Shown in pieces: positions 2,418 to 43,626 of a stretch of DNA of 64,000 nt. Where the stretch lies: positions 23,660,501 through 23,724,500 of the forward strand of contig JAKSXM010000231.1 of the NCBI GenBank assembly GCA_022575985.1, in the 5' to 3' direction. Each line of letters starts with the position of its first letter. Within the stretch, counting starts at the first letter, position 1. A program made the translations under genes and the position numbers. The notes under the pieces are model-generated. The model had not been told where the DNA came from. It did no database searches and saw only the letters and a program-made list of their open reading frames with translations. Source of the DNA: Anagrus nilaparvatae. Its lineage: Eukaryota; Arthropoda; Insecta; Hymenoptera; Mymaridae.

Positions 2418-2462
2418 CAATATGAAATTCTTGAAAAACTTGAAAGTTCAAGCCTGACAAGG

Positions 2463-14886: not shown

Positions 14887-15693
14887 GACAATAAAGTACA
14901 TCAATGGGGTGTACGCTCCAGCTCCAGCTGATGGACCACCGCCATCGACCAGAGCTACGAGAAAATCGGTAGCGTCCCGAAACGCGACTCCAGCAATCAA
15001 TGAGGCCCCGTTTCTAACGAGCCGAGTTGAGCCCCTTCGTCGTCCTGACATCCCAGTCGCCCCTTCGCCGGATATTCCTCCGCTTATGGGACCCTAGAAC
15101 CCTACGTTGAATATAGGGTAGCCGAATTAGCTTCGAGGCAATGGGAAAATTTCCCATTGCACTCCTTCGGATATAAGACAACAGGTGTAAGATATAGCGA
15201 TTTAGAACCGGTGGAATTTGACCCGAAAGTAGACGCACGGCCTGGCCTGTGTTTTAATTGCCGTCAAGGAATACACTCTCACAGAAATTGCACGGCAAAT
15301 CCCCAAACAGCACTGGTATGCGCTAACTGCGGCCGAAAGAATGTGCACATTTCCGAATTTCCGAGATGCCGCAAAGCGCATCTCAGATTCCTACACCGGC
15401 AAGCCTCAATTAAGGAACAAAAGAAAAATCAGTGGTTGGAAACTACATCGCGATTTTACACCCCACACCAACCAATCCATCTATGGGAGCGCTATCCCAC
15501 TGCCTTTACAGCCCCGGTACAGGAGAACGACCGATGGTTCCCTCGCCCTATGTGGCCCCGCGAAGAAATCGACCCTATCCCAGACCAAATCTTAGAAGCA
15601 ATACATGAAGCTCAGTCGCTAGAAAAGATGAATGAAGAGAAAATCATAAGATTCCTTCTTGCTTACTTCGATTTGATAGAAAAATTATACTAA
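14642..15693 (+). pseudogene. ORF3 of element 2: Pro-rich then zinc-knuckle protein
   Basis: Downstream of pol, where gypsy-type elements sometimes carry env. The first part (14642-15097) overlaps the last 245 bases of integrase in another frame and is Arg/Pro/Ala/Thr-rich. Reading continues in a different frame from about 15088 to the TAA at 15691, so one frame change is needed. The second part contains a perfect CX2CX4HX4C knuckle (CFNCRQGIHSHRNC at 15250) followed by a degenerate CANC...H...C. After that comes a Trp/Pro-rich segment and an acidic helical end. There is no signal peptide or membrane anchor, so it is not an envelope protein. It could be an extra nucleic-acid-binding protein. 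I do not recognise a named family. Confidence 0.6.
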
Positions 15694-21196: not shown

Positions 21197-22482
21197 ATAT
21201 ATATATTTTTTTTCTTTTTATTTATTTTTAAAATTATAATCGTTGATATTTAAATACAATCATACGTTATAATTTACTATAGATTTACTTTTTTTTTTGT
21301 CCGCTTGTCTTATTTTAAAGTATTTGCATTTGCATTTTATTCTAAATTTCTTTAACCTTTAAAATAATGTTTTTTTAGCAAATAAATATGATTTAACAAA
21401 TAACTATATTTGCTTTATAAAACGTGTTCTTTTTTGTACTCTATTGGTAGCATAGTTTGTTTGAACCGTAAAGTTTTGAATATAAAATCATTGATTTCAT
21501 CATTATTATCATTATTATTGTCAATGATTGTTTAATGATTTTTTAAATTGTCAACTAACAATTTTGAATTACAGGCAATAGCTTTATGCCATTAATTTTA
21601 AAATTACTTTTATTTTCTATCAATTAAAAATTTTTTTTGAATTTAAACTACTCCTTTAATGAAATTTTTATTTTTAATGCCATTTAGATCATTATTATTT
21701 TTTTTATTCTTGTAATACAAATACTTTGACTTCAGAGCTGGCTCTTGTTCATTTGATTCATCGGTAATAAAATTACTAATCATAAAAAAAAATATTATTT
21801 GTATATGCTCGGTGACAATACTAAGAGTAATTAAATGAGCTGTCACTTTGAGAATCTTATTTTTTTGGTAATTGGCAACTTTCTTTTTAACCGGTTATCG
21901 TAAATACAAGCAGTTTTTTAAAATACCTGCGAGGCAAATATATTATTTTACTTTTAAATACATATTTTAATATTTTGATATGAAATTCTGAAATATAAAG
22001 TTTATACCCAATTAATAATTATATAATCATAGGAAAATCACTTTTACTTGTATTGATCGTTTTTAAACGAATCAATCATACTCTTTGAGGTATTAAAAAT
22101 AAGTCTGTATTTAATTACATTTTTTTTGTATAATATAGACTATCAGTATCTTAAATCTTAATATTAATTAATTTTAATTTGTATTATATTATATATAAAT
22201 ATTATAAAAGACTGCTATGTTAATATAATGTATTTACTATTTTGTTTATAACAAATAAAGAACATCTATCTATCTATTTATCTATTAAATGGAACAAAAA
22301 AACCAAACAATCATTGTTCTTTCTTTACTTTTTTAAGGTAAACTATTGACTTTTTGTTATATAAGTATTATATTTTATATATAATCTTATTTTTATTTTT
22401 TATTATATTTTATATTAATTTTATATATATTTAATATTACATATATTGTATATTATATTTTAGAAATTTTATGTATAAGAAT
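21197..22482. other. AT-rich stretch with a TATC microsatellite
   Basis: Contains a CTATCTATCTAT tract at about 22265-22287. Otherwise no gene, RNA or inverted repeat that I can support. The short minus-strand open frame at 21643-21846 has no recognisable feature. Confidence 0.4.
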
Positions 22483-23321
22483 ATCTCCAAAAAAACATTT
22501 ACATGTAAAGTTACGCAAGTGCCTTTAAGTGTTGTCACTGCTTATTTATTTTATCTAGTATTTTATTAGGTAAACATTCTATTATCACTACTATTAAACA
22601 CTGCGAAAGTTTTGAGATCTAAAACAAAACTTTACGCAAGTTATGTGGGCTGATTAATAAAAAAAAAAAATAATATTACTTATTAAGTAATTGATTTATT
22701 ATAGATATATATGGAATTTAAAGTACCAGATTAAACATTCTATTATCACCAATTTTTAACACTACGAAAGTTTTGAGATCTAAAACAAAACTTCACGCAA
22801 GTTATGGAGGCTGATTAATAAAAAACAAAAAATATTAATTATAAAATTTTAAGATATCATAAAAAAAAAAAAAATTTCACTTGCCAGGTATATTTGAAAG
22901 CGGCTATTTATGTAGACCTGGCAAGTGAAATTTTTTTTTTTTTATGAGATCTTAAAATTTTATAATTAATATTTTTTGTTTTTTATTAATCAGCCTCCAT
23001 AACTTGCGTGAAGTTTTGTTTTAAATCTCAAAACTTTCGTAGTGTTAAAAATTGGTGATAATAGAATGTTTAATCCGGTACTTTAAATTCCATATATGTC
23101 TATAATAAATCAATTACTTAATAAGTAATATTATTTTTTTTTTTATTAATCAGCCCTCATAACTTGCGTAAAGTTTTGTTTTAGATCTCAAAACATTCGC
23201 AGTGTTTAATAGTAGTGATAATAGAATGTTTACCTAATAAAATACTAGATAAAATAAATAAGCAGTGACAACACTTAAAGGCACTTGCGTAACTTTACAT
23301 GTAAATGTTTTTTTGGGAGAT
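22483..23321. mobile_element. Foldback element with duplicated internal segments
   Basis: Palindrome of about 839 bp centred near 22900, with ends ATCTCC-AAAAAAACATTTACATG and the inverse. Each arm itself contains two imperfect direct copies of a segment with AAACATTCTATTATCAC, then TTTTGAGATCTAAAACAAAA and ACGCAAGTTATG (22570-22665 and 22730-22820 on the left). The central loop holds ACCTGGCAAGTG inverted around GTATATTTGAAAGCGGC. Confidence 0.85.
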
Positions 23322-26398: not shown

Positions 26399-26610
26399 CT
26401 AATCATAGCATTTGAATATATTTTTTAATTGTTTTAGTACTTCGCTTAATGTGTATATACACCATGCATTACCCAGCAGTCTTAATCTGTTAGTAAAGCT
26501 AAAATTGTTGACATCCGTGTAATGCTTGGGGAAGCCAAAAATGGCTTCTATTTCAGTAATCCAGAATTTAACTGGAACTCCGAAATAAAGTACTGGTAAC
26601 TTTTCAGAAG
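26399..26610 (-). pseudogene. THAP-DNMT3 last exon: methyltransferase motifs IX-X and stop
   Basis: Acceptor TTTTCAG at 26611-26617. Starts in phase 1 after the previous exon and runs 69 codons to TAG (26399-26401). It contains FWITEIEAIFGFPKHYTDV, corresponding to the DNMT3 pattern LWCTEMERVFGFPxHYTDV, then RLRLLGNAW, the motif X region (DNMT3 RQRLLGRSWSVPV), and ends K-x-IFKCYD as DNMT3 ends KEYFACV. No breaks in this exon. This is the most recognisable DNMT3 exon in the locus. Confidence 0.88.
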
Positions 26611-26769
26611 CTGAAAATTTTTATATTTTTTATTATAAATTCAGGTAAAAATGAAAAGAGAAGAAACAATTAATAAACAGTATGAAAAATAATTTTTCTT
26701 ATATATATATATATATTATAGTTACTTTAAGATAGTATAAACTATATACTGTTTTAATTATAAAGTATT

Positions 26770-27864
26770 TATACTCCAGTCATTTTGGGGGTTTGGGTTC
26801 GAACCTGTTGACATTCTGAGATTTCCTTTACTAGATGTTTTTTTGGTCGCTGAAAATAAGGAAACACCCTTAAACCAGCAAAAACTACCCCTTTTTAGGG
26901 GTTATAATGCAAAATTTCGAAAGTACAGCTAATATGGTCAAATATATTTTATTTTTTGATGTTGCATTAAGAAGATATTGTCATTTTTTTATAATTGACA
27001 AAAATTAGGCTATATGGGCTAGTTATAGAGGATCAAAACTACCCCCAAAATTTTAATAAAAACATAAAAATCATTAACATTTTTTTTTTTGACTTTCATT
27101 TGTGGAATTTTGTATTTAACCAAGTATTTTATGGTATTTGAACCATAACAAAATGTATTCACTCCCCGTGAAAAAAAAAATAGGTAAATATGATAATCAC
27201 AAAAAATAGATGTTAAAGAAAATATAAGATGTTAATAATTTCTTAAAATGTATTAAAATTTATTTAGTTTCTATTTTTTTAAATTTGTATATTGCTTTAT
27301 AATAACATTTTATCATGGTTTTTATGTATGTGAAAATTTAGGGGTTGTTTAAACCTCCAGGGGGGTGAATACATTTTATGATGGTTAATATAGCATAAAT
27401 TATTTTTAAATACTTGACTCCACAAAAAAAAGTAAAAAAATAAAGTATATATATATTATTATTTTTGATTTTATTGACCTGTACTGGGCATAGCCAGTAC
27501 CATGCATATGCCCAGTACAGGTCAATAAAATCAAAAATAATAATATATATATACTTAGTAAATATTTGGGCGATTAATTGAAATAACTAAAAATTTAAAA
27601 AAAATAAACTTTTATAATCTTTTTTCTATTTTTTTAAATTTTGATCATCAAAAAATAAAATATTTTTGACCATATTAGCTTGACTTTATAAATTTTGCAA
27701 ATAAACCCCAAAAAGGGGTAGTTTTTGCTGATTTAAGGGTGTTCCCCTATTTTACAGCCCAATTGGACACTGGATTCGTATTTAGCGACCCAAAAAATAG
27801 TAGAGCAAATCTTAGCCTGTCAACGGGTTTCGAACTCCCCCCTCCCTGCAAAATTACTGGAGTA
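26770..27864. mobile_element. Diverged foldback element in the last THAP-DNMT3 intron
   Basis: Left end ATACTCCAGTCATTTTGGGG and right end, inverted, ATACTCCAGTAATTTTGCAG. Further inverted blocks include GGGTTCGAA/TTCGAA, GTTGAC, TTGGTCGCT/AGCGACC and the ACTACCCCTTTTTAGGGG core. Arms are more diverged than those of the other palindromes, so this is an old insertion. A 108-bp F1 derivative lies inside it. Confidence 0.75.
27446..27553. mobile_element. Short internally deleted copy of foldback family F1
   Basis: Two inverted copies of about 42 bp (ATTTTATTGACCTGTACTGG and flanks) around a 14-bp centre. The termini match the 505-bp F1 palindrome at 19435-19940, so it is a deletion derivative. 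Confidence 0.85.
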
Positions 27865-27978
27865 TCAAAAGCTTAATATGATTTACTGCAATTAGAAAGA
27901 AAATAAAACAATTCGGGAATTAAAAATATTACAATAATTATGATTATTAAATTTTATTAATTAAAAACTGATTCATAC

Positions 27979-28196
27979 TCTGTTTTAAAGAATTGGAGCT
28001 TCTCGTGATTGTCCGAATTTCCACATCATCGATTTCACTGTTTGGTTCTCTGTTACGTTCCAAACAGTCTTTTAACTGAATTATTTTTCTAGTATTGATA
28101 TTATTCTCAAAAGGGACATTGGTCCAGTACAACCTTTCTCTATGCTGAGGTGTGAGTTTCCTGCTATCCACATGATGTGGTTTTACTCCCAATTGT
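27979..28196 (-). pseudogene. THAP-DNMT3 exon 10: methyltransferase motif VIII region
   Basis: Acceptor TGCAG, donor GTATGA at 27971-27978. Codes for KPHHVDSRKLTPQHRERLYW then TNVPF, matching the DNMT3 order PVMIDA-x-VSxAHRARYFWGNLP. It continues with LKDCLERNREP (family LQxCLExGR) and RTITRSSNSLKQ (family RTITTRSNSIKQ). If the donor is not used, a stop follows 11 codons later. With it, the join to the last exon is in phase. Confidence 0.88.
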
Positions 28197-28271
28197 CTGC
28201 ATAATTATTAAAATTACAATATTTGAAAAATTAAAGAAATTTAAAAAAAATTAAAAATTATTAAGCCTCAC

Positions 28272-28416
28272 TTTGTTAACTCCTGCACGCATTCTATTTG
28301 CATCCCGAACACATTTTCAAGTAGGAAATGTAATTTCACATCGTACTTCACATTATTCGCTTCAATAATGTCTTTTAAATCACAAAATTTGATTGATAAC
28401 ATTCCATTTGTTTGAT
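28272..28416 (-). pseudogene. THAP-DNMT3 exon 9: motif VI (ENV)
   Basis: Acceptor AAATTTCAG, donor GTGAGG. Contains TNGMLSIKF (DNMT3 TGRLFFEFY) and HFLLENVFGM (DNMT3 FFWLFENVVAM). The glutamate of ENV, which contacts the target cytosine in active enzymes, is intact (28310-28318). Both junctions keep phase. Confidence 0.87.
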
Positions 28417-29149
28417 CTGAAATTTAAAAAATATTTTATGAATTCCATGTACAATAGGCGTTTTTAATGGATATAAAATACTCAAAATCAGTGTATATTT
28501 TTGTAATTATTATTATTATATTTTTTTTTACAAAAAATACATAAATGTATAGGATTTTTAATTTATTTTGTGAAATTAATAACTAGAATCAATAAATTAT
28601 ATTGAAATTAAAAGCAAAATAACGATTTTAATTTTGAATAGTTTTAAGCGGTTTTTGCTTTATAATTGTCAAAAAACGTAATAAATTGATGTAAAAGGTT
28701 CGGTATGGTTATTTTTATGCAGTACTGAATAACTGTTGGTGAAAAATGTCTAAAAAATCTGGTTTGGACTTAAATAAAAGAATTTTTTATTTTTATTTTT
28801 TTTAAGCTATTTTTTCAAAGAAAATGAAAATGAGCTATATAAGATGCTTGAAAAAGCAAAATTATTTATAATTATTTAACAACAAGAGTCACCAAGGATC
28901 CTAGGATCCACCCTAGGATCTTCAAATTTTAAATACTTATGAGTCATTAGCTATTGCAGATCAATGTATCTCAAAAACTATGTTATGTAGAGGGAGGGTG
29001 GCTGTATAAGAATGATCAATATATTTTTTTGTCTTATGAGTTCTTGTTATGTACCTATTATTATTAAAATCTGTACTCAAATAAGATAGTCAGCATCCTT
29101 AAAAAAATAAAATTTTTATCTCGTCCGAAAATGGATTTACTAATCTTAC
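28417..29149 (-). other. Intron 8 of the THAP-DNMT3 locus
   Basis: AT-rich intron with no inserted element recognised. A CCTAGGATCC repeat cluster lies at 28894-28920. Confidence 0.5.
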
Positions 29150-29501
29150 CTTTTTTATTTGTATGGTCTTTATCTTTATTCTGCTTATTTTCATTTTGAG
29201 TACTTAACCCTTCTTTACTTATTAGTCCTTCATTGGTTTTAAACCTTTTAGAGTTCTTTTTATTTTCGCCAAATCCACATCTTCTTTTAGTAGTATTAGC
29301 CCTACTGAAAGTTTGATAAGGTGATCCACCCAAATATAAATTTATTGGATCAATTGCTTCGATAGTTTCTTTTGTAATGGTTTCAAAGTCTCCTAATTCT
29401 ATTACTTTATTTCCAAAATGATGTCTTGTTACAGTTAAAGCATTTTCATCAATCGTAGTACCTTTTGATCTTTAGTTTTAGTTTATCCAGTATAAGACGG
29501 G
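29150..29501 (-). pseudogene. THAP-DNMT3 exon 8: motifs II-IV, catalytic Cys replaced, frameshift
   Basis: Acceptor CTTTTGCAG, donor GTAAGA. The exon opens with ARLILDKLKLKIKRYYD (DNMT3 GYLVLKELGIKVGKYVA), then runs into TGA TGA. One frame over, ENALTVTRHHFGNKVIELGD continues the family pattern (ESIxVGxVRHxGxIxYVGD). The exon is 352 nt, one too many for its phases, so a net frameshift lies near 29445-29465. Motif IV reads GGSPYQTFS where DNMT3 has GGSPCNDLS: the catalytic cysteine codon is TAT (29316-29318). After motif IV there is a Lys/Asn-rich insertion of about 35 residues not usual for DNMT3. A 37-nt micro-intron (GT at 29465) could restore the frame but would remove conserved residues and be abnormally short. 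Confidence 0.85.
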
Positions 29502-30334
29502 CTGCAAAAGTAATTTTTTTTTACTTAGACTTGGAAATTATTTCAAAAAGTTTATTTTATTGTTAATTAACAGGCAAAATATAAGACATAAATTTAAAGA
29601 AACTATATAATCTTATATGAAATTGGAAATTCACATAAACAAAATTTATTTATAACTTTGGATTAAATACATAATATTTTTTAAGGCTCGATCACCCTAT
29701 ATATCCAATATATAGATGAAATTTTGCCTTATAAATCTTTGAGGTCAAAACATGCATCGTTCCTGAAAATTTCTAATTCATGGAGAATTTTTGCCCTCGG
29801 ATAATTTTGATGCCTCGGATAATGTTCGAAAAGGTGTATCTTCTGTTTCTTAAAACCTACTCAAATAATAAAAAATCCCCTGAAGCTAATTTAAAAGTGG
29901 AACATGCATATAAGGAGGGGGATACATTCCCTGGGGGAATCCTAAATTTAAGAGCGAGGAGGAGGGTCAAAAGTTTTTTAATTAGGGGGTTCATATTTGG
30001 GTGGCGGGTCGAATGTAATTAGAATATTTTTGATTCAGGGACTTTGAATAATTTCAAATAAGGGGTATAGAATTATAAGGATTTTGTTTAAAAATTATTT
30101 TTTTTTTGTTTAAAATAATAAAGGCTTCAAGATACAAAATATAAATTTAAACATGTTTCATGTTCATTGTTTGTCAGTACGCAAATCGGTTGTAACTTTT
30201 TTTTAAAACATTTTTCAAATTTTTTATTTGTTAGTAGATGTGAATCAAAACCACTTTAACAGCACATTTCAAACGAATGATACGAGTTTACGTAGGCTTA
30301 TACGTACATCTATATAAATACTAATGCAAGTTAC
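29502..30334 (-). other. Intron 7 of the THAP-DNMT3 locus
   Basis: AT-rich with a more GC-rich patch at 29780-30010. The plus-strand open frame there (29780-30022) has no recognisable domain and I do not call it a gene. Confidence 0.5.
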
Positions 30335-30514
30335 CTGTGCAAATTCCTTCAAAGGCGACTACAACAACAATTCCGTCTTTGCATTCTGGCAACGGACAAT
30401 ACACAAAATTTGGATGTTCAACTCTTGCTGTGGTTTTCCCACCATCTTGTAAAGCATAGAATTTCAACTTTTTAACCATTTCTTGTAGCAATGGGTTAAA
30501 AATTATCCTATTAT
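30335..30514 (-). pseudogene. THAP-DNMT3 exon 7: motif I
   Basis: Acceptor CTCCTTCCAG, donor GTAACT. The 3' half reads YCPLPECKDGIVVVVAFEG then ICT(G/A), aligning with DNMT3 [25 protein letters not shown]. The cofactor-binding DG is EG here. The 5' half (NPLLQEMVKKLKFYALQDGG) corresponds to the short helix region that links ADD and catalytic domain, but I see no zinc-binding cysteines. Length 180 nt with phase kept on both sides. Confidence 0.82.
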
Positions 30515-31252
30515 CTGGAAGGAGAAAATATTTACATAATATTTAAATATTCCAACGCCAAATTTTATAAAAAAACAAACAAAAAAAAAGTAAAATACAG
30601 AATTTTTCGAAAGTTTTCCAATTTTAATTTTTTTCTAAAAAACATCTGTATTAAAAATGTATCAAAAAAAAATCCATTTGATCAAAACATTAATTTGTAA
30701 AAATTATTTTTAAAACAATTAGGCCTCTTTGTCAGTACTACAGTGAAATAGAAAGGGCGTATGTTAATATTTAAGGTTGTTACATAGTTTTTTAACTTTG
30801 GTGCCTATAAAGAGCAAAATTCATTTTTAACTGCCTGAACCCCAAAATACGGATATTGTGGCCAAAAAAAAGTGGAATAAAGGGAGGGGGGGGGGGTCAC
30901 CGTCCCGGATGAATCTGAATTAAACTTCGTACCATTAAATACATGTATGTCTTAAAAATTTTTATGATTATAAATTCGAGACGCGGGGGTGCTAACTATC
31001 AGAAGATAAAAAACAGACGTACGACGGAAATTAATTTTTGTACCAATTTTACTCAGAAAACTTTCAGGGTTCAAAAATTTGTTATAAGCAGACAAAAAAA
31101 TTAGAGTACAAAAAATTTGGAGTAATGTCACCCATATTATATCCCGTATACAAATATCCTGTGTAAGCACAACTTACATTTTCAAGTGTAAACGTAAGTT
31201 GTGAAAGTATATTTTCAGGATTTTTTTAACAGACAATTTATTATTATAGCTA

Positions 31253-31360
31253 TTCTATTGGACTCCTCGAGGACTTTATTTGGATTTGCAACGGTATTTG
31301 GATGCACAACGCTTGCACACAATTTTTTATGCGGGTTTCAATGGAGTAGCTAGCATAGTA
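31253..31360 (-). pseudogene. Possible Cys-containing exon relic (ADD remnant?)
   Basis: A good acceptor (TTATTTTTTCAG at 31361) is followed by about 36 open codons with NCVQALC in one frame and CKRCASKYRC in another. It sits in the intron between the PWWP and catalytic exons, exactly where DNMT3 genes carry the Cys-rich ADD domain. The match is weak and no donor is clear. It may be chance. Confidence 0.18.
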
Positions 31361-31637
31361 CTGAAAAAATAATTGTAATCCCAATTTAAAAAATAATAAT
31401 GGGATATTGTTTAGAATAAATTTTTTTTTTCCACCTACATATGTTACATTGAACGTGAAACATGTAGCGTACAGCTTCCCACCTGTCTATAGACAGGCAA
31501 TCAAGAGGAATCATATAAGCACCATGAGTGAAAAATTATGATTTCTGAGGATTTTTTCTAGTGATTTATGGATGTGTCAAAAATTTTTTGCCATTATGTA
31601 TTGCTTTGAATACTATATATGTATACTATTTATTAGA

Positions 31638-31685
31638 CTGGTTTTTTTTTTTCGAAGTATCCGGGATTCCTAACGCGCCGGCAGA
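31638..31685 (+). repeat. Detached copy of the Foldback element left end
   Basis: AGACTGG, a T run, then CGAAGTATCCGGGATTCC and ACGCGCCGGCAGAAT is repeated at 31997-32048, the left end of the element at 31996-34296. It directly abuts the inverted copy of the PWWP exon. Confidence 0.85.
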
Positions 31686-31959
31686 ATATTGAAATATTTG
31701 GTGAAAAATTGAGTTTCGTAAATAAAAAGTATGCAAAGGTTCGCGTATTCACTCCTTATAAACACAGACAAAGAAAACTTATTTACATTGAACTTGCACA
31801 GGTAAATTTTTATGTCTATCCATGTAATACGTATATTAACTACAAATTATCTTCACTTGCTCGTGAAATACTCCAAGGTAAAATCTGAATTTAACGAAGC
31901 AGATAAAAAAGATATAGAAAATTGGCTGTTAGAAAACGTATCAACAAAAGATGATAAAT
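31686..31959 (+). pseudogene. Inverted duplicate of two PWWP exons of the THAP-DNMT3 locus
   Basis: Plus-strand 31686-31801 (donor GTAAAT) and 31878-31959 (donor GTAAGT) are inverted copies of minus-strand exons 34491-34619 (3' part) and 34333-34414, including the intron between. A few codons differ: Lys-to-Glu and Tyr-to-Asp in the second exon and Cys-to-His in the first. The flanks up to 31995 and from 34297 also pair. The copy lies outside the element arms and on the wrong strand, so it cannot be spliced into the gene. Confidence 0.85.
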
Positions 31960-31995
31960 GTAAGTAAATATTTATTCTTTTACATACATAAATAG

Positions 31996-34296
31996 TAGAC
32001 TGGTTTTTTTTTTCGAAGTATCCGGGATTCCTAACGCGCCGGCAGAATTCGAAAATATAAGTAAAAAAAATAAGTTTCTCGTTGGATTTAAATCAAAACA
32101 TCGATTTTTGAGCCCACGATAGCTCTCGAAAGTTTTTTTGTTGGCCTCCTTAAAATTGGGATTATCTTAAAACTTTCAGTTTTTCTAGTGGATTCAAATC
32201 GCGTTTAAGATTATGTTCCAATTAACATTCCTTAGTATTTTTTCCCCAGGAATCCGATGAAACCATTTATTTTAGTTTTTAACCACGTTTTATAGGAGAA
32301 AAATCGATTTTCGTTTCCTTTTAGGGTCCAAATTTCAAGGGGACCAATTTTAAAAGTTTTGTAGTTTTCTGAATAAATTTTTCTCTATATTATTAAAAAG
32401 AGGGACTTGTCTATTTTTTCCCTAAAAATTCGATGATACCATTTATTTTAGCTTTTGACCACGTTTTATAGGAGAAAAATCGATTTTATTCATTTTTAGG
32501 GTCCCAATTTTAAGGAAATCTGTTATAAAAAGTTAGTAGTTTTCAAAATAAGTTTTTCCGATTATTATTTAAAAGAAAGTCTTGTATATTTTTTCCTCAG
32601 GAATCCGATGAAACCATTTATTTTAGCTTTTGACCACTTCTTATATGAGAAAAATCGACTTTTGTCGTGTTTTGAGGTCCCAATTTTAAGGAAATCAATC
32701 ATAAAAGTATAACAGTTTACAAAATAAATTTTTCTGAATATTATTTACTAAAGGAACTTATGTATTTTTTCCCCAGAAATCCGATGAAAACATTTATTTT
32801 AGCTTTTGACCACGTTTTATAAAAGAAAAATCGATTTTATTGAAACCACTGTTGTTAGGGTCCCAATTTTAAGGAAATCTATTATAAAAGTTAGCACTTT
32901 TCAAAAAAAGTTTTTCTGAATATTATTTACAAGAGGTTCTTGTATATTTTTTCCCCAAGAATCCGATAAAACCATTTATTTTAGCTTTTGTCTACGTCTT
33001 ATATGAGAATAATTGATTTTTGTCGTGTTTCAGGGTCCCAATTTTAGGGGAATTAATCATTAAAGTTTTCTAAATAAATTTTTCTGAATATTATTTACTA
33101 AATGGACTTATGTATTAATAGAAGTTTCTCCCTAGAAATCCGATGAAACTATTTATTTTTGCTTTTGACCTCATCTTATACGAGAAAATCGATTTTTGTC
33201 GTTTTTCAAGGTCCCAATTTTAAGGGAATCAATCATTAAAGTTTAATAGCTCATAAAAAAAATTTTTCTGAATATTATTTACTAATGATACTTTAATATT
33301 TTTTCCTGAGGAATTTGATGGAAGAATTTAATTATCTATTTTCCTAAAATTTACTGATTTTTCCATATTTTATTTGCATTATGCTTTTTGAATTACTAAT
33401 GAATTACAGATAAAAAAACAAAAAGCTTTTTGAACTACAGATAAAAAATTAATTTGTTCCATAGAATGTCTCAGAAAAAAATACACAAGTATTATTACTA
33501 AATAATATTCAGAAAAATATATTCTGAAATAAGTAACAGACTCTTATAATTGATTTTCTTAAAATTATGACTCTGAAAAACTACAAAAAACGATTTTTCT
33601 CGTATAAAACGAGGTCAAAAGTTAAAATAAATGGTTTCATCGGATTTCTGGGGAAAAAATACATAAGTTCCTCTAGTACATAATATTCAGAAAAATTTAT
33701 TTTGTAAACTGTTATACTTTTATGATTGATTTCTTTAAAATTGGGACCCCAAAACACGACAAAAGTCGATTTTTCTCATATAAGAAGTGGTCAAAAGCTA
33801 AAATAAATGGTTTCATCGGATTCCTGGGGAAAAAATATACAAGACTTTTTTTTAAATAATAATCAGAAAAACTTATTTTGAAAACTACTAACTTTTTATA
33901 ATAGATTTCCTTAAAATTGGGAACCTAAAAACGAATAAAATCGATTTTTCTCCTATAAAACGTGGTCAAAAGCTAAAATAAATGGTATCATCGAATTCTT
34001 AGGGAAAAAATAGACAAGTCCCTCTTGTTAATAATATAGAGAAAAATTTATTCAGAAAACTACAAAACTTTTAAAATTGGTCCCCTTGAAATTTGGACCC
34101 TAAAAGGAAACGAAAATCGATTTTTCTCCTATAAAACGTGGTTAAAAACTAAAATAAATGGTTTCATCGGATTTCTGGGGAAAAAATAATAAGGAATGTT
34201 AATTGGAACATAATTTTAAACGCGATTTGAATCCACTAGAAAAACTGAAACTTTTAAGATAATCCCAATTTTACTTCGAAAAAAAAAACCAGTCTA
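31996..34296. mobile_element. Foldback (FB)-like element built of inverted tandem repeats
   Basis: 2.3 kb palindrome, ends TAGACTGG-T(n)-CGAAG and the inverse. Each arm is made of about five to seven units of roughly 175 bp containing CGATGAAACCATTTATTTTAG, CACGTTTTATAGGAGAAAAA and GGTCCCAATTTTAAGG-like blocks, and the units run inverted after about 33400. Long inverted repeats made of tandem units are typical of Drosophila Foldback elements. The left arm has about 140 bp (32020-32160) not matched on the right. No ORF. Confidence 0.85.
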
Positions 34297-34332
34297 CTAT
34301 TTATGTATGTAAAAGAATAAATATTTACTTAC

Positions 34333-34414
34333 ATTTATCATCTTTTGTTGATACGTTTTCTAACAGCCAATTTTCTATATCTTTTTTATATGCTTCGTTA
34401 AATTTAGATTTTAC
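34333..34414 (-). pseudogene. THAP-DNMT3 exon 6: end of PWWP region
   Basis: 27 codons plus one base, donor GTAAGT, acceptor ACTCCAAG. Encodes FNEAYKKDIENWLLENVS, which fits the Y-R-K-A-I-x-x-x-L helix that follows the PWWP fold in DNMT3. Phase 1 at the end matches exon 7. The acceptor is weakly pyrimidine-rich, so the exact start is less certain. Confidence 0.65.
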
Positions 34415-34490
34415 CTTGGAGTATTTCACGAGCAAGTGAAGATAATTTGTAGTTAATATACGTATTACATGGATAGACATAAAAATTTAC

Positions 34491-34619
34491 CTGTGCAAGT
34501 TCAATGTAAATAAGTTTTCTTTGTCTGCATTTATAAGGAGTGAATACGCGAACCTTTGCATACTTTTTATTTACGAAACTCAATTTTTCACCAAATATTT
34601 CAATACTTTCATTAGTTAA
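34491..34619 (-). pseudogene. THAP-DNMT3 exon 5b: PWWP core, second part
   Basis: Acceptor ATATTTTTAG, donor GTAAAT, 43 codons. Contains EIFGEKLSFVNKKYAKVRVF, aligned with the DNMT3 PWWP stretch WFGDGKFSxVxxEKLxxL. The frame does not connect cleanly to the preceding segment 34655-34713, so the junction is broken or uses a signal I cannot see. Confidence 0.68.
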
Positions 34620-34654
34620 CTAAAAATATTAACTTAGGATCAGATTAAGATTAG

Positions 34655-34713
34655 GATCCATGTTTTATTTGGCGCATCCTGAAGACCAATGTCCACTCCT
34701 TTTACAGTGATAC
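34655..34713 (-). pseudogene. THAP-DNMT3 exon 5a: PWWP core, first part
   Basis: Acceptor CGTTTCTTTAG, in phase with exon 4. Codes for TVKGVDIGLQDAPNKTW, then hits TGA after about six more codons inside a small inverted repeat (GGATCC-TAATCT-TAATCT-GATCC). No usable GT donor is visible before the stop. In DNMT3 the TRW-V-WFG motif would be continuous here, which suggests that a short insertion broke an originally single exon 5a-5b. Confidence 0.5.
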
Positions 34714-35849
34714 CTAAAGAAACGTTACATAAAATTACAGAATATCAATTTTAAATTATCTTTTTTTTTTATAAATTTTCCACCTCAGTAAAAATAACCA
34801 ATATACATTACATTGTATCCGTAATATAAAATTAAAATATCAAATTTTTAACAAATTTTAAACAATTTTGACCTTGCTTTAAATTTTAAACAATTTAAAA
34901 AAATTGCTTGTTTTAAACGCAGTTTCTTAGATATTTAATTTTTAATTATTAATTGATCACCCATAGTTAATTAATTATAAATTTCAAGTTTTCTATAAAT
35001 TGAATCAGCACTAATTTTGTTAAATTTTTATTAACAACGGACCTGCCTTTAAAAATCTATAAAACTCTTTCGGAGCCAATTAAAAAAAATTTTTATTTTT
35101 ATTTTCTTTTTTTTTGTAGTTTTTAATGCCCTGAGCGGGAAAATTATAAATCGGAAAAAGTACACGAAATGTAATTCATTTTACAGCAGAAATAGAATAC
35201 CTAAACTCAGGAATGTATGATAACTTTGTTAACAGTAGAATGTATTTTTTTCAAGGAACACCGCGAATAAATTTGGGTAACCATGGGATAAAACATTTCT
35301 AGGAGGGAAAACACACCAAAATGAACGCGGTTACCAGCTCGACCTTTTCAAACTTAAACTTAAGTTTATAGGGGGGTTTACATATAGAAAATAGGATCTT
35401 CCACCAAATTTCAGCTCCCTAGGTCTCAATCTGCCCATGTTATGCCCAATGAAACCTTTTCAGTGTTACTGAATTTTTTTAGTCATAAAACATTTTTTCA
35501 GTATAAGTCCTTAGCCATTTCTGGCGTCAGTGTTTCGCAAAAATCTCTAGAAAAACCCCGGACAACCGAATACATACGCTGCCAAGTAATTGGCACTATG
35601 GTTCCTCATTAGCAATAACAAAATGTTCTTAATGGTCTATTTTACCTAACAAAGTATAATGTCATAAAAAAAACTAAGAATGATCTTTGAATGATCTTTT
35701 CCTTGATACTGTTAGTTTAACATCTCATGAAAAAAATTAGGTTTTTTACACAAAAAAAAGAAGATTTTTCTACACTAGTACATAATCTTCTTTTATGATA
35801 ATTATGTCTGCTAGACAGTTTTTGATGTAGCTGGTGTAATTATTTTTTG
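34714..35849 (-). other. Part of intron 4 of the THAP-DNMT3 locus
   Basis: AT-rich, no gene or clear repeat recognised. Confidence 0.4.
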
Positions 35850-36560
35850 TAAAAAATTTTGAAAAAATTACGTATCAGATCCAAAAAATTACTATTCACG
35901 ATATTTTTAAAACTAGTACTTCCACAAAAATAAATTAAGTACTGCGTCCATAAAGAAAAAGAAAATTGGTATTTTTTGTATTTTTTGGTGAAAAAAATTT
36001 TCAAAAAATAAATTATGATTCAAGATATAGGGTAAAAACGATACTTCTAGATATCAGTACTTTCGTGGAAAAAAATGAGGTACTACTTCCAAAAAGAAAA
36101 AAAAAATTTCGAAAAATTAGGTATCAGATGGAGAAATCCTTTACAAACGATAATTCTAGATACTCGTATTTTCATAGGAAAAAATTAAGTATTTCGTCCT
36201 AAAATAAAAAAAATTTTGGCGTTTTTTGTATTTTTTGGCGACAAAAATTTTGAAAAAAAAAAATTTGAAAAAATTAAGTATCAGGTCCAAAAAATTACTA
36301 TAAACGATATTTCTAAATTTAGTACTTCCACAGAAATAAATTAAGTACTGCGTCCATAAAGAAAAAAAAAAATTGTTATTATTTGTATTTTTTGGTAAAA
36401 AAGAATTTTGAGAAAAAAATTTTTCAAAAAATTAGTTATCAGATTCGAGATATTGAGTAAAAATCGTACTTTCAAATATAAGTACTTTCATGGAAATAAA
36501 TGAGGTATTACATCCAAATTAAAAAAAAAAAAAAAAGTAGTTTGAGATTTTTTTATGAAA
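35850..36560 (+). repeat. Tandem repeat, unit about 160-170 bp, four to five copies
   Basis: Units share ATTAAGTATCAGRTCCAAAA, AAACGATATTTCTA, TAGTACTTCCACA and TACTGCGTCCATAAAG. Related to the array at 16950-17420. The plus-strand 78-residue open frame at 35966 is only a reading of this repeat. Confidence 0.75.
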
Positions 36561-36625
36561 AAATTTTTGAAAAAAAAATTAGGTGTTAATTCCATAATGG
36601 TTGTGAAATTTCACTGGTTACATAC

Positions 36626-36644
36626 ACACACACACACACACAGA
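36626..36644 (+). repeat. (AC)n microsatellite
   Basis: Nine AC units within intron 4. Confidence 0.9.
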
Positions 36645-36660
36645 CTTTTTTTAAAAACCG

Positions 36661-37462
36661 GTAGCTTCCTGAGGTCCCAAATCGTGCTTATATGCCAAAA
36701 AATCAAAAAACAATTTTGACCCATCACAATGGTTCCTCTATAAGGAACCAAAACAATAATAAAAATAATGCAACTGAAGCATCTTCAAAATATATATGTT
36801 TCTGATGGAAATTTTAGTACTTGCTTTTTAAGCCCTTTTTTGATAAAAGTAATTTTGGCCATTTCTATTGGCTACAGAAAAATAGAGTAGGGCTAAAAAG
36901 AATACATTTATTTTTTAAAGATTTTAATAGCCAGTAAAAAAGTAATCTATTTAAAAATAAAAATTTGTTTCTTTTTTTTGAAAAATAATTGAGTTATCGT
37001 GAAATTAAGATTTTTAAAAATTTTTCCTCATTTTTTAAAAACGTAGGATTCTCTTGCATAAATTTTTTTCTAAATTTTATGATAACAAGTTTATTTTTTA
37101 ACGAAAAAAGTAAATTATGTAGATAATGATTGATTCATTTTTTATCAACTTTTTTAACATGATGATGATCAAAGACTATTGCGGGTTTTTCTAAAAATTT
37201 TAAAAATATGGTTTTTTACCCCACCAGGACTGTACAAAAAATTTAAGGATGGTATATTTATTGTATGCTCCAAAACCCGATTTTCGAATAATTCAAAATT
37301 ATATTTCGGGGTCTTAAGAGTTCTAAAAGCTAAAAAAAAAATTTTCTTGAAAAATGATAAAATAGCCTTTTTTATTTTACTCGCTTCTTTGTCTATATTT
37401 TCCACAATTTTATCGACAATAAATTGTTAAAAGCTTATATTAAAAGCTTACATAATATAATG
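36661..37462. other. AT-rich intronic stretch, nothing recognised
   Basis: Overlapping open frames on both strands at 37169-37430 are complementary to one another and have no family features. Confidence 0.35.
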
Positions 37463-38305
37463 TATATGTTACCGTTAAAGTCCGCTCTCCCGATAATGTT
37501 AACATTAACCAGTTAAAGTTAACTTTAGCGAAGCGTTTTCGTTAAAGTCCACGAAGACGATTAAAATGAATAAAAATACAACATTAACGGGTGTGTATAC
37601 GATAAAGTTAACTTTAACCAATCCTTGTCAGTTAAAGTCCATGAAAGCGGTTTCGCATACTAAAAAAAATTTGTTTATATATTATATACGACTCTCGCTA
37701 TAAGGCACCCCAAGGGATTAGGTTAGGCTACTCTTTTAAAAATGCATTTCTTGGGACTAGTAACCAATCCTAGTTATAACACACCCCTAGGGTTAGGTTA
37801 GGCTATTTTTTTTTTAAAGGCATTTTCACGCAGTAAGGCATTCCTTAGAATTAGGGCAAGGTGGGCTTAAGAACCCATGCGCAAATTTGTAAACAATACT
37901 GTGACAATGCCTTTAAAAAAAAATAGCCTAACCTAACCCTTGGGGTGTCTTATAACTAGGATTGGTTACTGATCCTAAGAAATGAATTTTTAAAAGAGTA
38001 GCCTAACCATAGAGATGTTTCACAATATCTTTATGAGCCTAACCTAAGCCCTGAGAGTACCTTATAGCGAGAGTCGTATATAATATATAATACAAACTCG
38101 AACTCTTATATGAAACCGCTTTCATGGACTTTAACTAACAAGGATGGGTTAAAGTTAACTTTAACGAACATGATGCCGCTAATGTTATATTTTTATTCAT
38201 TTTAATCGTCTTCATGGACTTTAACGAAAACGCTTCGCTAAAGTTAACTTTAACTGGTTAATGTTAACTTTATCGGGAGAGAGGACTCTAACGGTAACAT
38301 ATATA
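37463..38305. mobile_element. Foldback element in intron 4
   Basis: Palindrome of about 843 bp, ends TATATGTTACCGTTAAAGTCC and the inverse, centre near 37880. The arms repeat the motif GTTAAAGTTAACTTTA and contain AGGTTAGGCTA. No ORF. Confidence 0.85.
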
Positions 38306-39290
38306 ATTTTTAGAGATTTTTTTCAAAATTGACTTCCAAATTCAGAAATTTTCTAAAAAATTTGGTAGAACACTGGAAATTTTTGGGCACTGAAATTTGA
38401 TAAAATCAAAATGGGCCAATTTTAAAAAGTTGACCTGTCACGTAGGGAACATTCAACTTCACGAATTTTACCTAACAAGAAATGAATTTTTTTTTCAAAT
38501 ATGTAAGTTGTTAAGCAATAAGGGTTCTTTGTAAAGATTGATATTTATTGTCTTATTTGATGTTTATTGTCTTATTGTTGCATGTTTTTTTGTTGCATTT
38601 ACACAAACAAGGTATACTTAAGTTTGTTTCTACTACACTTTTTGATTATAATACAGGAGACGTAATTTTTCTGTTATATACAAATAATAGTTCTAAGCTG
38701 TATTATTTTTTTTTTTACATGGAACATGTTTATAGGCAGGGAGAAGTATTTCAAACATGTCCTTTGGGGAGGGGGATGGTCTAATGTGCTATATTGGGCA
38801 TGCCCTGTATAGCATGCTATGCCTCTCTTGTTCCGAGACAGGATTCTTAATGATCATAATTAGCTGTAGCTCTCGCTGTAGCTCCTGTGTAACTTATTGT
38901 ATAAGTGTTGGATAAGGCAACTTAAATAGAATTAAACTAAGAGGTTTCGTATAAACTTATTGTGTAAATCAAAATAACTTTAAAATTTTTATCCATATTT
39001 CGCGTAATATTTGACATATATAATAATTTAGTTAGAAGATATCGAGGAAGAAATTCATTTAAAATAAAATATGATTGATTTATTATGATTGTTATACAAG
39101 CAAATGATATATGTATTAGAAATTTAGTCCAAGCACGCCTTTGTTTTACTACATTTACGTATTTTACTAAAGACAATGTATTTATGGTAAGCATATAGGT
39201 ATAAAATTTTTGGCAGCAAGTTGATGTTTATCGATTTTAAGACAAAAATTATTATTTTCAGCCTTAAATAACAATTTTGTATTTAATTAC
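38306..39290 (-). other. Rest of intron 4, nothing recognised
   Basis: AT-rich. The open frames at 38548 (+) and 38937 (-) show no domain. Confidence 0.35.
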
Positions 39291-39441
39291 CTGGATACCA
39301 GCCGTCATTAGGTAACAGTCCAATAATTAATAATCCTGTTATTATTTCACAATCTTCTAAAAGATCTTTTGTTGTTTTTTCAACATCGAGTCTTGGTAAT
39401 ATAACTTTGGCAGTCATGAACAATTTATCTTTACTGAAGGG
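39291..39441 (-). pseudogene. THAP-DNMT3 exon 4: start of PWWP-like domain
   Basis: Acceptor TTTTTATTCGCAG, donor GTAATT, 151 nt. After a stretch with LFMTAKVILPRLDVEKTTKD it reads GLLIIGLLPNDGWYPG, matching the DNMT3 PWWP start GxLVWGKLxGFSWWPG: WYP takes the place of WWP. The exon ends in phase 1 and joins exon 5a in frame. Confidence 0.7.
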
Positions 39442-39449
39442 CTGCGAAT

Positions 39450-39625
39450 AAAAATGTAAAAAATTTCTTTTTTATTAACATTAAAATATTCTTTTACTTG
39501 TATTTATCAAGGTATTTATGATATCATTAACAAATTATTGAAGAAAAATGTTAAAAATTTCTTTTTTATTAACATTAAAATATCCTTTTACTTGTATTTA
39601 TCAAGGTATTTATGATATATAATTT
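39450..39625. repeat. Two-copy tandem repeat, about 94-bp unit
   Basis: AATTTCTTTTTTATTAACAT, then TTTTACTTGTATTTATCAAG and GTATTTATGATAT, are present at 39460-39520 and 39554-39618 with one mismatch. Lies in intron 3. Confidence 0.85.
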
Positions 39626-39825
39626 ATATTTAATTAAAAAAAAAAAAAATGGTTATTAGGAAAATAGCCGTATGGAGTGATAGATAAAATTATCTATGCA
39701 TTGAATTGTTTCAATAAGGGTTTTACCATTGAATAAAAATTGGTTTAAGATAAGTTTTCGTGTTCCAATTTTTTTTTTTTACTTTATAATATACTTTAAT
39801 AAGGAAATTAATGTTTATCAATTAC

Positions 39826-39907
39826 CTGATTTGATAATTCATTGCGATTAATTATTATTAGCTCTGAGTAGAGTTTTTTGGGTTGTTCTTGATAGACTTT
39901 TGTAATG
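39826..39907 (-). pseudogene. THAP-DNMT3 exon 3: linker
   Basis: Acceptor TTTTTTTCAG, donor GTAATT, 82 nt. Encodes ITKVYQEQPKKLYSEL and a short hydrophobic/Asn stretch. No domain recognised. Phase matches exon 2 (2+1) and exon 4 (0). Confidence 0.7.
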
Positions 39908-40111
39908 CTGAAAAAAATTTTATAATCATAAACTAAAAATATTTTTAAAAGTATGTATGTGAAATTAAAAAATGATAAGAAATCTTATTACTGAATATAT
40001 TTGAAAAGTGATTTGTGTGTCTGTGTGTCTGTGCGTGCTTTTATAACTAAGGATCCACCGAACCAATGTACATAAAACTGGTGTAAAAATGAAGAAAAAA
40101 AGGTTAATTAC

Positions 40112-40780
40112 CTGGAAATATTTTCTGCCTCAGAAATGTCTTCAAAATTTTCTTCTTCCTTTCTTTCTTTATAATTATTATTTACAAAAATCTCTTCTAA
40201 CTCTAAAGAACTATCTTGAAATTCATTATTTTCAAAAATAATATCGCCTTCCACGATATTTTGTTCTTCCTTCCTTTGTTGATCATGATTATTTAAATAA
40301 ATCTCTTCTAACTCTCCAGAACTATCTTGAAATTCATTATTTTTAAAAATAATATCCCCTTCCACGATATTTTGTTCTTCCTTCCTTTGTTGATCATGAT
40401 TATTTAAATAAATCTCTTCTAACTCTCCAGGAGTGTCTTCAAATTCATTATTTTCAAGTAAATTGTAAGTTAATGTGATATTTTCTTCTTCCTTGCCTGC
40501 TTTATAATTATTATTATTATTTTGCAGGAAATTAATTTCTCTTGGCTCCAAATCGTTCTGGTCTAGTATAATTGAAATTTTTGGAGAAGGGTATATTTGA
40601 ATTTCGGATAAAGCTGGATTTTTCAGACAATGTCGATTGTTGCCCTTTATGCATCTGATTTCTAATTTATCACAATAAAAGTGATCACTGCATACTTTCT
40701 TGTGCCGAGTTGCTTGAATATTTAATGTATTTAAGATTTCTACCCACTTTGGGTGCAACTGTCCTTTTACAGTTGGGATC
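40112..40780 (-). pseudogene. THAP-DNMT3 exon 2: second half of THAP finger and acidic tandem repeats
   Basis: Acceptor CTTTTGTCAG, donor GTAATT, 669 nt without a stop. Residues about 1-60 carry the THAP hallmarks: IPTV (the F/IP position), HPKWVEIL with the conserved Trp, CSDHF (the C and H zinc ligands) and a CLKNPALSEI block at the AVPTIF position. THAP domains are C2CH DNA-binding zinc fingers found in chromatin regulators and P-element-type transposases. After an Asn-rich stretch there are three near-identical 37-residue units (111-nt period) containing GELEEIYLNNHDQQRKEEQN and IVEGDIIF, strongly acidic. The exon is open and the repeats are well preserved, which suggests recent origin. 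Confidence 0.88.
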
Positions 40781-41334
40781 CTGACAAAAGAATGATAGCA
40801 TATTCAGTAATAATATCATATGAAGTAAAAAGCAAAAACTTGACAAAAGCAAGATAAAAAGAAAGGGGAAAAATAATTATATTCCAAAAATATAGTTAAA
40901 AGGTTTAATTTCTGTAAAATTTTTGCTAATCCAGTCTATTTGTCGGTTTTGATAATGTATTATCTGCGAAGCTTTCCCCCTGTTTTATTAATTTCCATAA
41001 AAGTCTAGTCACTCGTTTCGGAAATTATTTAAAATATTGTGAATTTACTCGCAAATTTTTGGGAAACATTTTTAGTTTCAATTAATTTAAGAGCTCTTCA
41101 TGGACGCTATTTTTTTAGCTGTTACCCAAACCCGCAAACGAACGCTTTTTTAAAATCCTTATTTTTATTTTTTAAGACATTAGTTTAAGGTTTGGTAACT
41201 TTTTTGGCTAAAAAAAAAGATGATGCAGTAGTTTTACAAATAATTTTTTTTTTATCAAATATCAAAGCATGCTTCTACTCGAAGTCATTTAATAAAAGAA
41301 ACATATAATGGTATGTAAAAACAGCTTTACTGTA

Positions 41335-41475
41335 TACACAGTAAAAAATAATAAATACAATATAACTACAGTTTACTAAAATTACAATTTGTATCACAAT
41401 TTGTAGTAATATTACTAAATTGCAGTAAAATTACTAAACTGTAGTTACATTGTGTTCATTATTTTTTACTGTGTA
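41335..41475. mobile_element. MITE-like inverted-repeat element
   Basis: Inverted ends of about 40 bp (TACACAGTAAAAAATAATRA and TAACTACAGTTTA) enclose about 60 bp. 141 bp in total, no coding capacity. In intron 1 of the THAP-DNMT3 locus. Confidence 0.82.
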
Positions 41476-41739
41476 CGACTAAAATGATTCAAATATCTAT
41501 TTTAGAGGCACCAGGGTATCTAATATTTATGGTAAGAATCCATTGATTAGAAAAATTTGCGATGCATGTTTGGATATTGCAGTAAGATAAAATTTGATTA
41601 CATTGATGTAAAATTATGAAACTCTCAAATTAAAAAAAAATAAAATTTTTTATATTTTTGTTGTGCGATAAAAAATGGCTGCAATAATGAAGCTTTTAAA
41701 ATTTAGACCCCACAATCATAAATTGTTAGAAATTGTTTG

Positions 41740-42376
41740 AGAATTTTTTTTACATGTGTTTTCCCATACTTTTCATGCTGGTAACCTCCTTTTTTGTCCC
41801 ATTTGCCTTTTAAGTACTTAAAAATCAATTTTAGGCTCAAAAAAATGATTTTAAAAATTGTTCATTTTCTGAATTTTCCAATTTTCTCGCTTTTCCTGAT
41901 AGAAAATGAAAAATCTGACTTGATTTTCGGATTCCTCGGGAAATTTTACATTGAAAACCTTCTTGGGTAAAATTTTAGAGGATTTTATGACGCTGTTAAA
42001 AAAAGAGAAACAAAGTAACCTGCTAAAATCAAACATAATTAAACATAATTAAATTTTGCTATTTTTTTATTCTGTTTATTTTTTTTGATTTTAGCAGGTT
42101 ATTTTGTTTTTCTTTTTTTTAAAGCGTCACAAAGCCCTCTAAAATTTTACCCAAGAAGGTTTTCAATGTAAAATTTCCCGAGGAATCCGAAAATCAAGTC
42201 AGATTTTTTATTTTCTATCAGGAAAAGCGAGAAAATTGGAAAATTTAGAAAATGAACAATTTTTAAAATCATTTTTTTAAGCCTAAAATTGATTTTTAAG
42301 TACTTAAAAGGCAAATGTGTCAAAAAAGGAGATTACCAGCATGAAAAGTATGGGAAAACACATGTAAAAAAAATTT
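41740..42376. mobile_element. Foldback element in intron 1 of the THAP-DNMT3 locus
   Basis: Palindrome of about 637 bp centred near 42055, ends TTTTTTTTACATGTGTTTTC and the inverse. The 61-residue minus-strand frame at 41851-42036 is part of an arm. Confidence 0.85.
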
Positions 42377-42836
42377 AAAAAAAAAAAAAAAAGTGACGCT
42401 TTTTGAGAAATTTGTATTTTCCAGTTTTCTTTAGTTTTTCCGATTTTCCGGCTTTTCCTGAGGTTTTCCCGAAAAAACATGGTCAGATTCGGATTGGGCG
42501 GGAATTTTTACTACCCAAATTTATGTAGAAAATATTTTTTAGGCTTATTTAGGGCGTCCAGAAATAAAAAGCAAACGGGTGGCTGAGAATTCGAAAAAAA
42601 TGAAAATTGGAAAAACAGCTGCCAAATCGCAACCAAGCCACCTAGAGCCTTAAAAATTGGCAAGTAACCATATTTTTACATACCAAACACAGTGCAATTA
42701 GTATTTTTTAAATCCAAGACATCGACCTCAGACTTGGGTAAAAATAGCTAAGAACTACCGACAATGGTGTTTATATCTTGTAAAATATTTGTTAAAAAGC
42801 TTCATTTAACAAAAAACCATTTTCATTGATTTTATA

Positions 42837-42956
42837 GGTATAACAAAACGTCAATTTTTAATTTTAAATCTTGAGGATGGTGAATCTGGTTCTAAAGGCT
42901 TCTCTAATTCTTCTGAAAATCCTAGTCGTCCCATTAGTCAGTATAATTTTAGCTAA
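42837..42956 (+). other. Orphan coding-like segment, plus strand
   Basis: A possible acceptor (TTGATTTTATAG) is followed by 40 open codons with well-spread amino-acid use, including LEDGESGSKGFSNSSENPSR, ending in TAA. The base composition looks coding compared with its surroundings. No family recognised and no companion exons found on this strand. It may be an exon relic from an unrelated gene inside the THAP-DNMT3 intron 1, or chance. Confidence 0.22.
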
Positions 42957-43552
42957 ATTTTTTTAGAATAATGATGGTAAATAAACAAGCAGCTGTTTTA
43001 TCAGATATAGCAAAACCTTTGATGTCATGAATCGAGACATAAATGATATATCAAAAGGCTTAAAATTAAAAAATGTCAGGGGTGGAAGAATTTTATCAAA
43101 ATTATAAACTTAAATTTCAAATATGCAGTTCTATATTAACACCTATTGAATAAAAAAGATCAACATTTATAAAATGAAGATATCTGTTTTTACACAATAA
43201 AGTAATATTAATTAAAGCTTATTTAAACGCAAGATAATTTTAAAAAATAAACATGTTTATAAATTAACAAAAAAAAGTGGCGGAGGTAAAATTGTCTGGG
43301 TAAATAGACGCAGCCTTATAAAAAATGAAAAAATACGGTTGCTAAAAATTGAAAGTCGGATTCATTGGCGATATTTTATGGATTTTAAACTACATGCATC
43401 ACTTATATAACTCATATTAATACATATAATATGATCTGACCCCCTCCCCCCTTTTACTTCTATAACTTTATTTTATTTGAAATTAGCGCTATTACAAATG
43501 AATGCTTTGTGTTATATAATTAAAAAAGTGTTCTTTCAAGAAAAATACTTAC

Positions 43553-43626
43553 GCAAATAATGTCTAAAATTTATTATCAGAATTTTGTGACGTATAGGAG
43601 CGGCATATACAGCATGGGTGTGACAT
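43553..43626 (-). pseudogene. THAP-DNMT3 exon 1: first half of THAP finger with premature stop
   Basis: ATG at 43624-43626, perfect donor GTAAGT at 43547-43552. Starts MSHPCCICRSYTSQNSDNKF, then TAG (43564-43566), then TLFA before the donor. THAP proteins begin M-x-x-C-C or M-x-C and need C-x2-4-C then 35-53 residues to C-x2-H. Here C-x2-C is followed after 46 positions by CSDH in exon 2, counting the stop as one residue. Phase 2 joins exon 2 exactly. The in-frame TAG would end translation after 20 residues. Confidence 0.8.

Follow-up and report, generated by a model that had tools for sequence, protein, structure and literature searches.

In a 64,000-nt stretch of the Anagrus nilaparvatae genome, hereafter the window, the minus strand carries a locus (43626 to 26399) in which a THAP zinc-finger domain precedes a DNMT3-type DNA methyltransferase. 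Based on comparisons within the same genome, this locus probably (at roughly 0.8) belongs, as a decayed paralogue, to a genuine gene family whose DNMT3 proteins begin with THAP at the N-terminus, and the family would be a lineage-specific expansion. A preliminary description of the window had proposed that a DNMT3 copy acquired a sequence-specific DNA-binding domain. A single gene joining the two domains is supported, but the fusion is common to many copies, while the window copy is broken and lacks the catalytic cysteine.

Paralogues share the THAP-DNMT3 layout

The genome (488.7 Mb, 393 contigs) was searched with the window exons as queries. Two paralogues, A (C1, minus strand, L021) and B (C342), repeat the window's succession of THAP, GWYPG, and methyltransferase exons, all on one strand, which rules out a fusion event confined to the window locus. 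For A, the reading frame is open from THAP to PWWP across 11 exons with agreeing phases, and five methyltransferase exons are open; B is open from PWWP through its stop. The THAP domains of A and B score 25.1 and 27.3 bits in Pfam (cut-off 23.9), and their methyltransferases score 58.7 and 39.0 bits against PF00145. Additionally, the PWWP domain of B exceeds its cut-off (26.2 against 25.6), whereas that of A falls below it (13.9).

A profile built from the family's own THAP domains located THAP exons upstream of further DNMT3 copies. The fullest of these, L013, holds a complete THAP, PWWP1, PWWP2, ADD, and methyltransferase, with no internal stop in 7 + 13 exons: the seven open exons run from THAP to beyond PWWP1, and the 13 open exons run from before PWWP2 to the stop, with one GC donor. 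The introns separating THAP exon 2 from the exon in which PWWP1 ends measure 75 and 67 nt in L013 and 82 nt in L016, and their phases agree. In L013, L016, and A, the frame stays open with agreeing phases from THAP into PWWP1. When the first THAP exon was sought under strict settings, none was found at C39, C373, L014, and L015.

The fullest layout, that of L013 and L016, is THAP, an acidic or repetitive linker, PWWP1, PWWP2, ADD, and the methyltransferase. In the subfamily formed by the window copy, A, and B, the layout is limited to THAP, PWWP1, and the methyltransferase, and both PWWP2 and ADD are absent. The ADD-like exons of L008 match L009 and L011-L016 and leave A, B, and the window unmatched, and a Pfam scan of the latter three listed no ADD family. 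The copy closest to the window gene is C171 (82% identity in THAP and 83% in the methyltransferase), whose THAP and methyltransferase exons are open. It is nearly duplicated on C1, as C171:173029-177218 and C1:9261798-9265987 share 99.7% identity over 3.4 kb, and these two are the closest copies to the window gene. L019 was dropped as a family member because it has no DNMT3 match.

The linker itself varies within the family. In A, an exon pair between THAP and PWWP is tandemly repeated with splice sites and phase kept; the repeat unit is 37 aa within one window exon and longer in L016.

Copy number and frequency of the THAP domain

About 33 DNMT3-like loci were obtained from 73 exon matches, which we grouped ourselves, in a search that scored 100 candidates; nine of the loci are supported by one exon match each. 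L011 matches L012 at 100% identity over the parts compared, and the C1:9.26 Mb copy matches that of C171 at 99.7%, so assembly duplicates may be included among the copies. THAP was counted at 11 loci chosen regardless of it (A, B, L009-L016, and C171), leaving aside the window copy, which had been picked for its THAP. An upstream THAP on the same strand was present in 8 of these 11 (A, B, L010, L013, L014, L015, L016, and C171). Two other loci, C39 and C79:15.40 Mb, were chosen for a nearby Pfam THAP match and do carry THAP; the THAP exons of C342:1.32 and C79:15.64 Mb, the only exons read there, closely resemble that of C79:15.40.

For four of the 33 loci, a Pfam THAP match lies on the same strand no more than 6 kb upstream, against an expectation of 0.10 for 20 kb (Poisson P 4e-6). 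Three of these loci arose recently by copying from one another; when they are counted once, two remain, and P is about 0.005 (calculated by hand). The proximity test used THAP matches on DNMT3-bearing contigs and a few others. Genome-wide, there are at least 147 Pfam THAP matches, many in long open frames; the true number may be higher, as 150 of 300 candidates were scored, and the chance expectation is therefore too low. The donor of the fused domain may lie within this large THAP complement. The P-element-like source suggested in the preliminary description was not borne out, as THAP is common in the genome and the THAP tree settles neither the donor nor a single origin of the fusion. Other PF00145 loci, at C147 (two places) and C1:32.59 Mb, resemble Dnmt1 and Dnmt2 in their motifs.

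Divergence and selection among copies

The window copy, A, and B group together in the tree (98/97), and the branches of the window copy, A, and L010 are long. Near-identical pairs aside, the methyltransferases of the copies are 34-52% identical, and THAP is less similar than the methyltransferase in 34 of 36 pairs. Across nine members, THAP identity and methyltransferase identity are correlated (Pearson 0.88, Mantel P 0.0006), with a rank correlation of 0.33 (P 0.06); for the six members without near copies, the correlation is 0.30 and not significant. The THAP dN/dS of L013/L015 is low (0.17, 54 codons), and that of L016/L014 is 0.28 over 60 codons outside a 23-codon stretch considered below. 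No dN/dS could be obtained for two of the three L013/L015 methyltransferase pieces because silent changes were zero. Moreover, the phase-2 introns flanking THAP exon 2 in the window, A, L013, and L016 agree with a single origin.

The dispersal of about 33 loci, together with the use of THAP as a transposase domain by P elements, raises the question of whether a mobile element carrying THAP and DNMT3 spread as a transposon and gave rise to the copies as its parts. However, many introns are retained in the copies, the methyltransferases have diverged to the extent given above, and the Pfam scan detected no transposase in the window, A, and B pieces (terminal repeats were not searched for). We consider such an element highly improbable.

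One gene or two adjacent genes

Several observations weigh against a family of fused genes. The case for fusion is built on genomic sequence. For A, the reading skips positions 21483 to 22967 of the sequence taken for that locus, between PWWP1 and the enzyme, where B has two exons; for B, the THAP-PWWP join was not resolved; and for L013, neither was the join between the 7-exon and 13-exon parts. L016 loses its frame in the PWWP2 exon at an A-run, and L014 shows frame changes in THAP and at an A-run as well as a stop in a methyltransferase exon; the A-run changes in both loci may be decay or assembly errors. C171 has no PWWP1 exons, and its THAP cannot be joined in frame. Furthermore, no THAP was detected in the upstream DNA read for L009 (about 20 kb) or L011 (about 11 kb), and the contig of L012 ends at the locus, leaving no upstream DNA for THAP. 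Finally, the THAP dN/dS of L016/L014 reaches 1.13 over 23 codons.

Some of these points, namely the purely genomic footing of a joint THAP-DNMT3 gene and the joins of B and C171, would also suit two adjacent genes that were co-duplicated as a unit and never made one protein, as would the 16 kb that separate the linker exons of A from its PWWP exon. In contrast, the introns of L013 and L016 between THAP exon 2 and the exon that holds the end of PWWP1 measure 67-82 nt, with all phases agreeing and no stops, and 11 exons of A agree from THAP to PWWP. Two separate genes are rejected on L013, L016, and A, though not on B or C171, and for the family as a whole we regard this arrangement as unlikely. 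The earlier preference for a single gene over separate neighbours is thus upheld by the three loci whose frame continues unbroken, with agreeing phases, from THAP to within PWWP1, and a fused THAP-DNMT3 gene family is the reading that we retain.

Exon structure and decay of the window copy

Twelve exon segments were read by eye in the window, and their splice sites and frames were then checked. These minus-strand exons sit at the positions given in the preliminary description and are flanked by GT/AG sites, in the order THAP, acidic repeat linker, GWYPG-containing PWWP remnant, and DNMT3-type methyltransferase. Exon 1 (43553..43626) contains the start codon and the first zinc-ligand pair of THAP, Cys-x2-Cys. 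Exon 2 (40112..40780) supplies the remaining THAP, including CSDHF, followed by the acidic 37-aa repeats. The C2CH zinc-ligand pattern is present, and THAP is recognised as PF05485 (26.0 bits against 23.9, with X entered at the stop). The acidic repeats are likewise confirmed, as the coding repeat at 40147-40457 has a period of 111 bp, 2.8 copies, and 91% matches. Exon 3 (39826..39907) is a linker assigned on the basis of agreeing phases.

The PWWP1 remnant begins in exon 4 (39291..39441), which carries GWYPG and matches an exon of paralogue A (45% identity, 40 aa, E 1e-5). Its core lies in the exon 5 remnant (34622..34713), which reads into stops, while its counterparts in A and B stay open. 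The GWYPG motif of the PWWP-like region described earlier is confirmed; at E<=1, Pfam recognised neither PWWP nor DNA_methylase (PF00145) in the window pieces. Exons 6 (34491..34619) and 7 (34333..34414) form the post-PWWP1 region and are homologous to C171. The methyltransferase follows, with motif I (FEGICTG) in exon 8 (30335..30514), motifs II-IV in exon 9 (29150..29501), motif VI (ENV) in exon 10 (28272..28416), motif VIII (QHRER) onward in exon 11 (27979..28196), and motifs IX-X (GNAW) with the stop codon in exon 12 (26399..26610). As the preliminary description had it, the order of DNMT3 motifs is followed: exons 8-12 run parallel to DNMT3A/3B, starting with motif I and finishing with motif X; the PDB matches comprise 35 distinct sequences of DNMT3 and plant DRM2, the best being DNMT3B (E 3e-39).

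In contrast to the claim of only one broken join, the window copy carries at least four lesions, and phase is kept at the 34333/30514 join. In exon 1, a stop interrupts the frame ahead of the donor site, whereas B and C171 are open at the aligned exon 1. The PWWP exon contains stops at about 34642-34634, where A and B read on. The reading frame shifts near the start of the catalytic exon (exon 9, 29501-29150). In the same exon, the window reads GGSPY, with tyrosine where the paralogues hold the catalytic cysteine (GGSPC in DNMT3). The Pro-Cys of motif IV is kept in ten other loci examined and in C171, so that the catalytic residue is held by the family and lost by the window copy. Collectively, the window copy looks dead and appears to be a decayed member of the THAP-DNMT3 gene family, and most likely no working enzyme would come from it.

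Alternatively, the window copy could encode a regulatory, catalytically dead protein like mammalian DNMT3L. Most of its exons are still open, at 82-83% identity to C171, and the Cys-to-Tyr change by itself would abolish catalysis only; likewise, the pea aphid Dnmt3X is reported to be without key residues (PMC3335499). The exon 1 stop, the PWWP-exon stops, and the exon 9 frame change weigh against such a role, which we think doubtful, and decay of a once-intact family member is preferred.

Within intron 7-8, the exon 6-7 region is duplicated in inverse (31637-31888, plus strand, against 34404-34619, minus strand), and the encoded protein is almost the same. Elsewhere in the window, long open reading frames at 8511-15693 (plus strand), with a gag-like relative at 1728-3206, resemble a Ty3/gypsy-type retroelement, with protease, reverse transcriptase, and integrase-like letters. 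On contig C342, a cluster at 24634767-24706537 holds four carotenoid desaturase genes of the crtI family, all of them full-length; such genes are suggestive of aphids or related insects, without being proof.

Possible mode of action

In intact members, THAP would bind a DNA site, PWWP and, where kept, ADD would read nucleosomes, and the methyltransferase would methylate cytosines near the THAP-bound site. Members without ADD would lean more on THAP. More tentatively, and with the balance somewhat against it, this insect lineage may have turned DNMT3 into a large, diverging methyltransferase family with its own DNA address reader, THAP and DNMT3 in one protein, perhaps silencing transposons or setting morph-specific methylation, with the subfamily lacking ADD and PWWP2 steered mainly by THAP. 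If true, direct DNA-addressed methylation could be tested in an animal that naturally possesses some thirty copies of a DNMT3 equipped with a DNA-binding domain, and methylation studies in the group of this insect would change. Fusions of DNA-binding domains with DNMT3 exist as laboratory constructs, and the family would be their natural counterpart.

Comparison with known systems

Among 71 listed protein matches, none contained PF05485; only roughly 8000 candidates sharing most words were scored, and insect relatives may therefore have been missed. For residues 280-789, 70 matches were listed, of which one is unnamed and the others are presumably from fish, as judged by their names. No match was returned for residues 245-470, and the family alignment retrieved one 442-aa protein with PF00145 only. 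No described THAP-DNMT3 fusion was found in literature covered by titles and abstract openings, a coverage that is weak for insects, and THAP is not mentioned in the main text of PMC8821070 and PMC7324797.

According to PMC8821070, PWWP and ADD are the only accessory domains of DNMT3, and animal DNMT3 enzymes are described there as being guided through both by histone marks. The family described here resembles DNMT3A/3B and insect Dnmt3 in motif order, in PWWP, and, in most copies, in ADD, with DNMT3B/3A as the best PDB matches; it differs in having THAP at the N-terminus, a further PWWP, and about 33 loci. Only two DNMT3 genes each are reported in the pea aphid (Dnmt3a and Dnmt3X; PMC2826372) and in Diuraphis noxia (PMC7324797). 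The pea aphid Dnmt3X, compared here by its description, is similar to the window copy in being a second DNMT3 for which missing key residues and possible pseudogene status are reported (PMC2826372, PMC3335499). Fish DNMT3 also has an added N-terminal domain, calponin-homology (CH; several matches list PF00307 and PF00145), but CH, unlike THAP, is no DNA-binding zinc finger.

With THAP proteins and P-element transposase, the family shares the C2CH THAP with its CSDHF motif; traces of a second THAP motif, AVPTIF, show in some copies. In P-element transposase, THAP is followed by the transposase, whereas here it is followed by DNMT3, with no transposase family in the window, A, and B pieces. KRAB zinc-finger proteins offer a further parallel as a growing family possibly coupling DNA recognition to silencing; they are not homologous to the family described here, in which the enzyme would share the protein with the DNA-binding domain.

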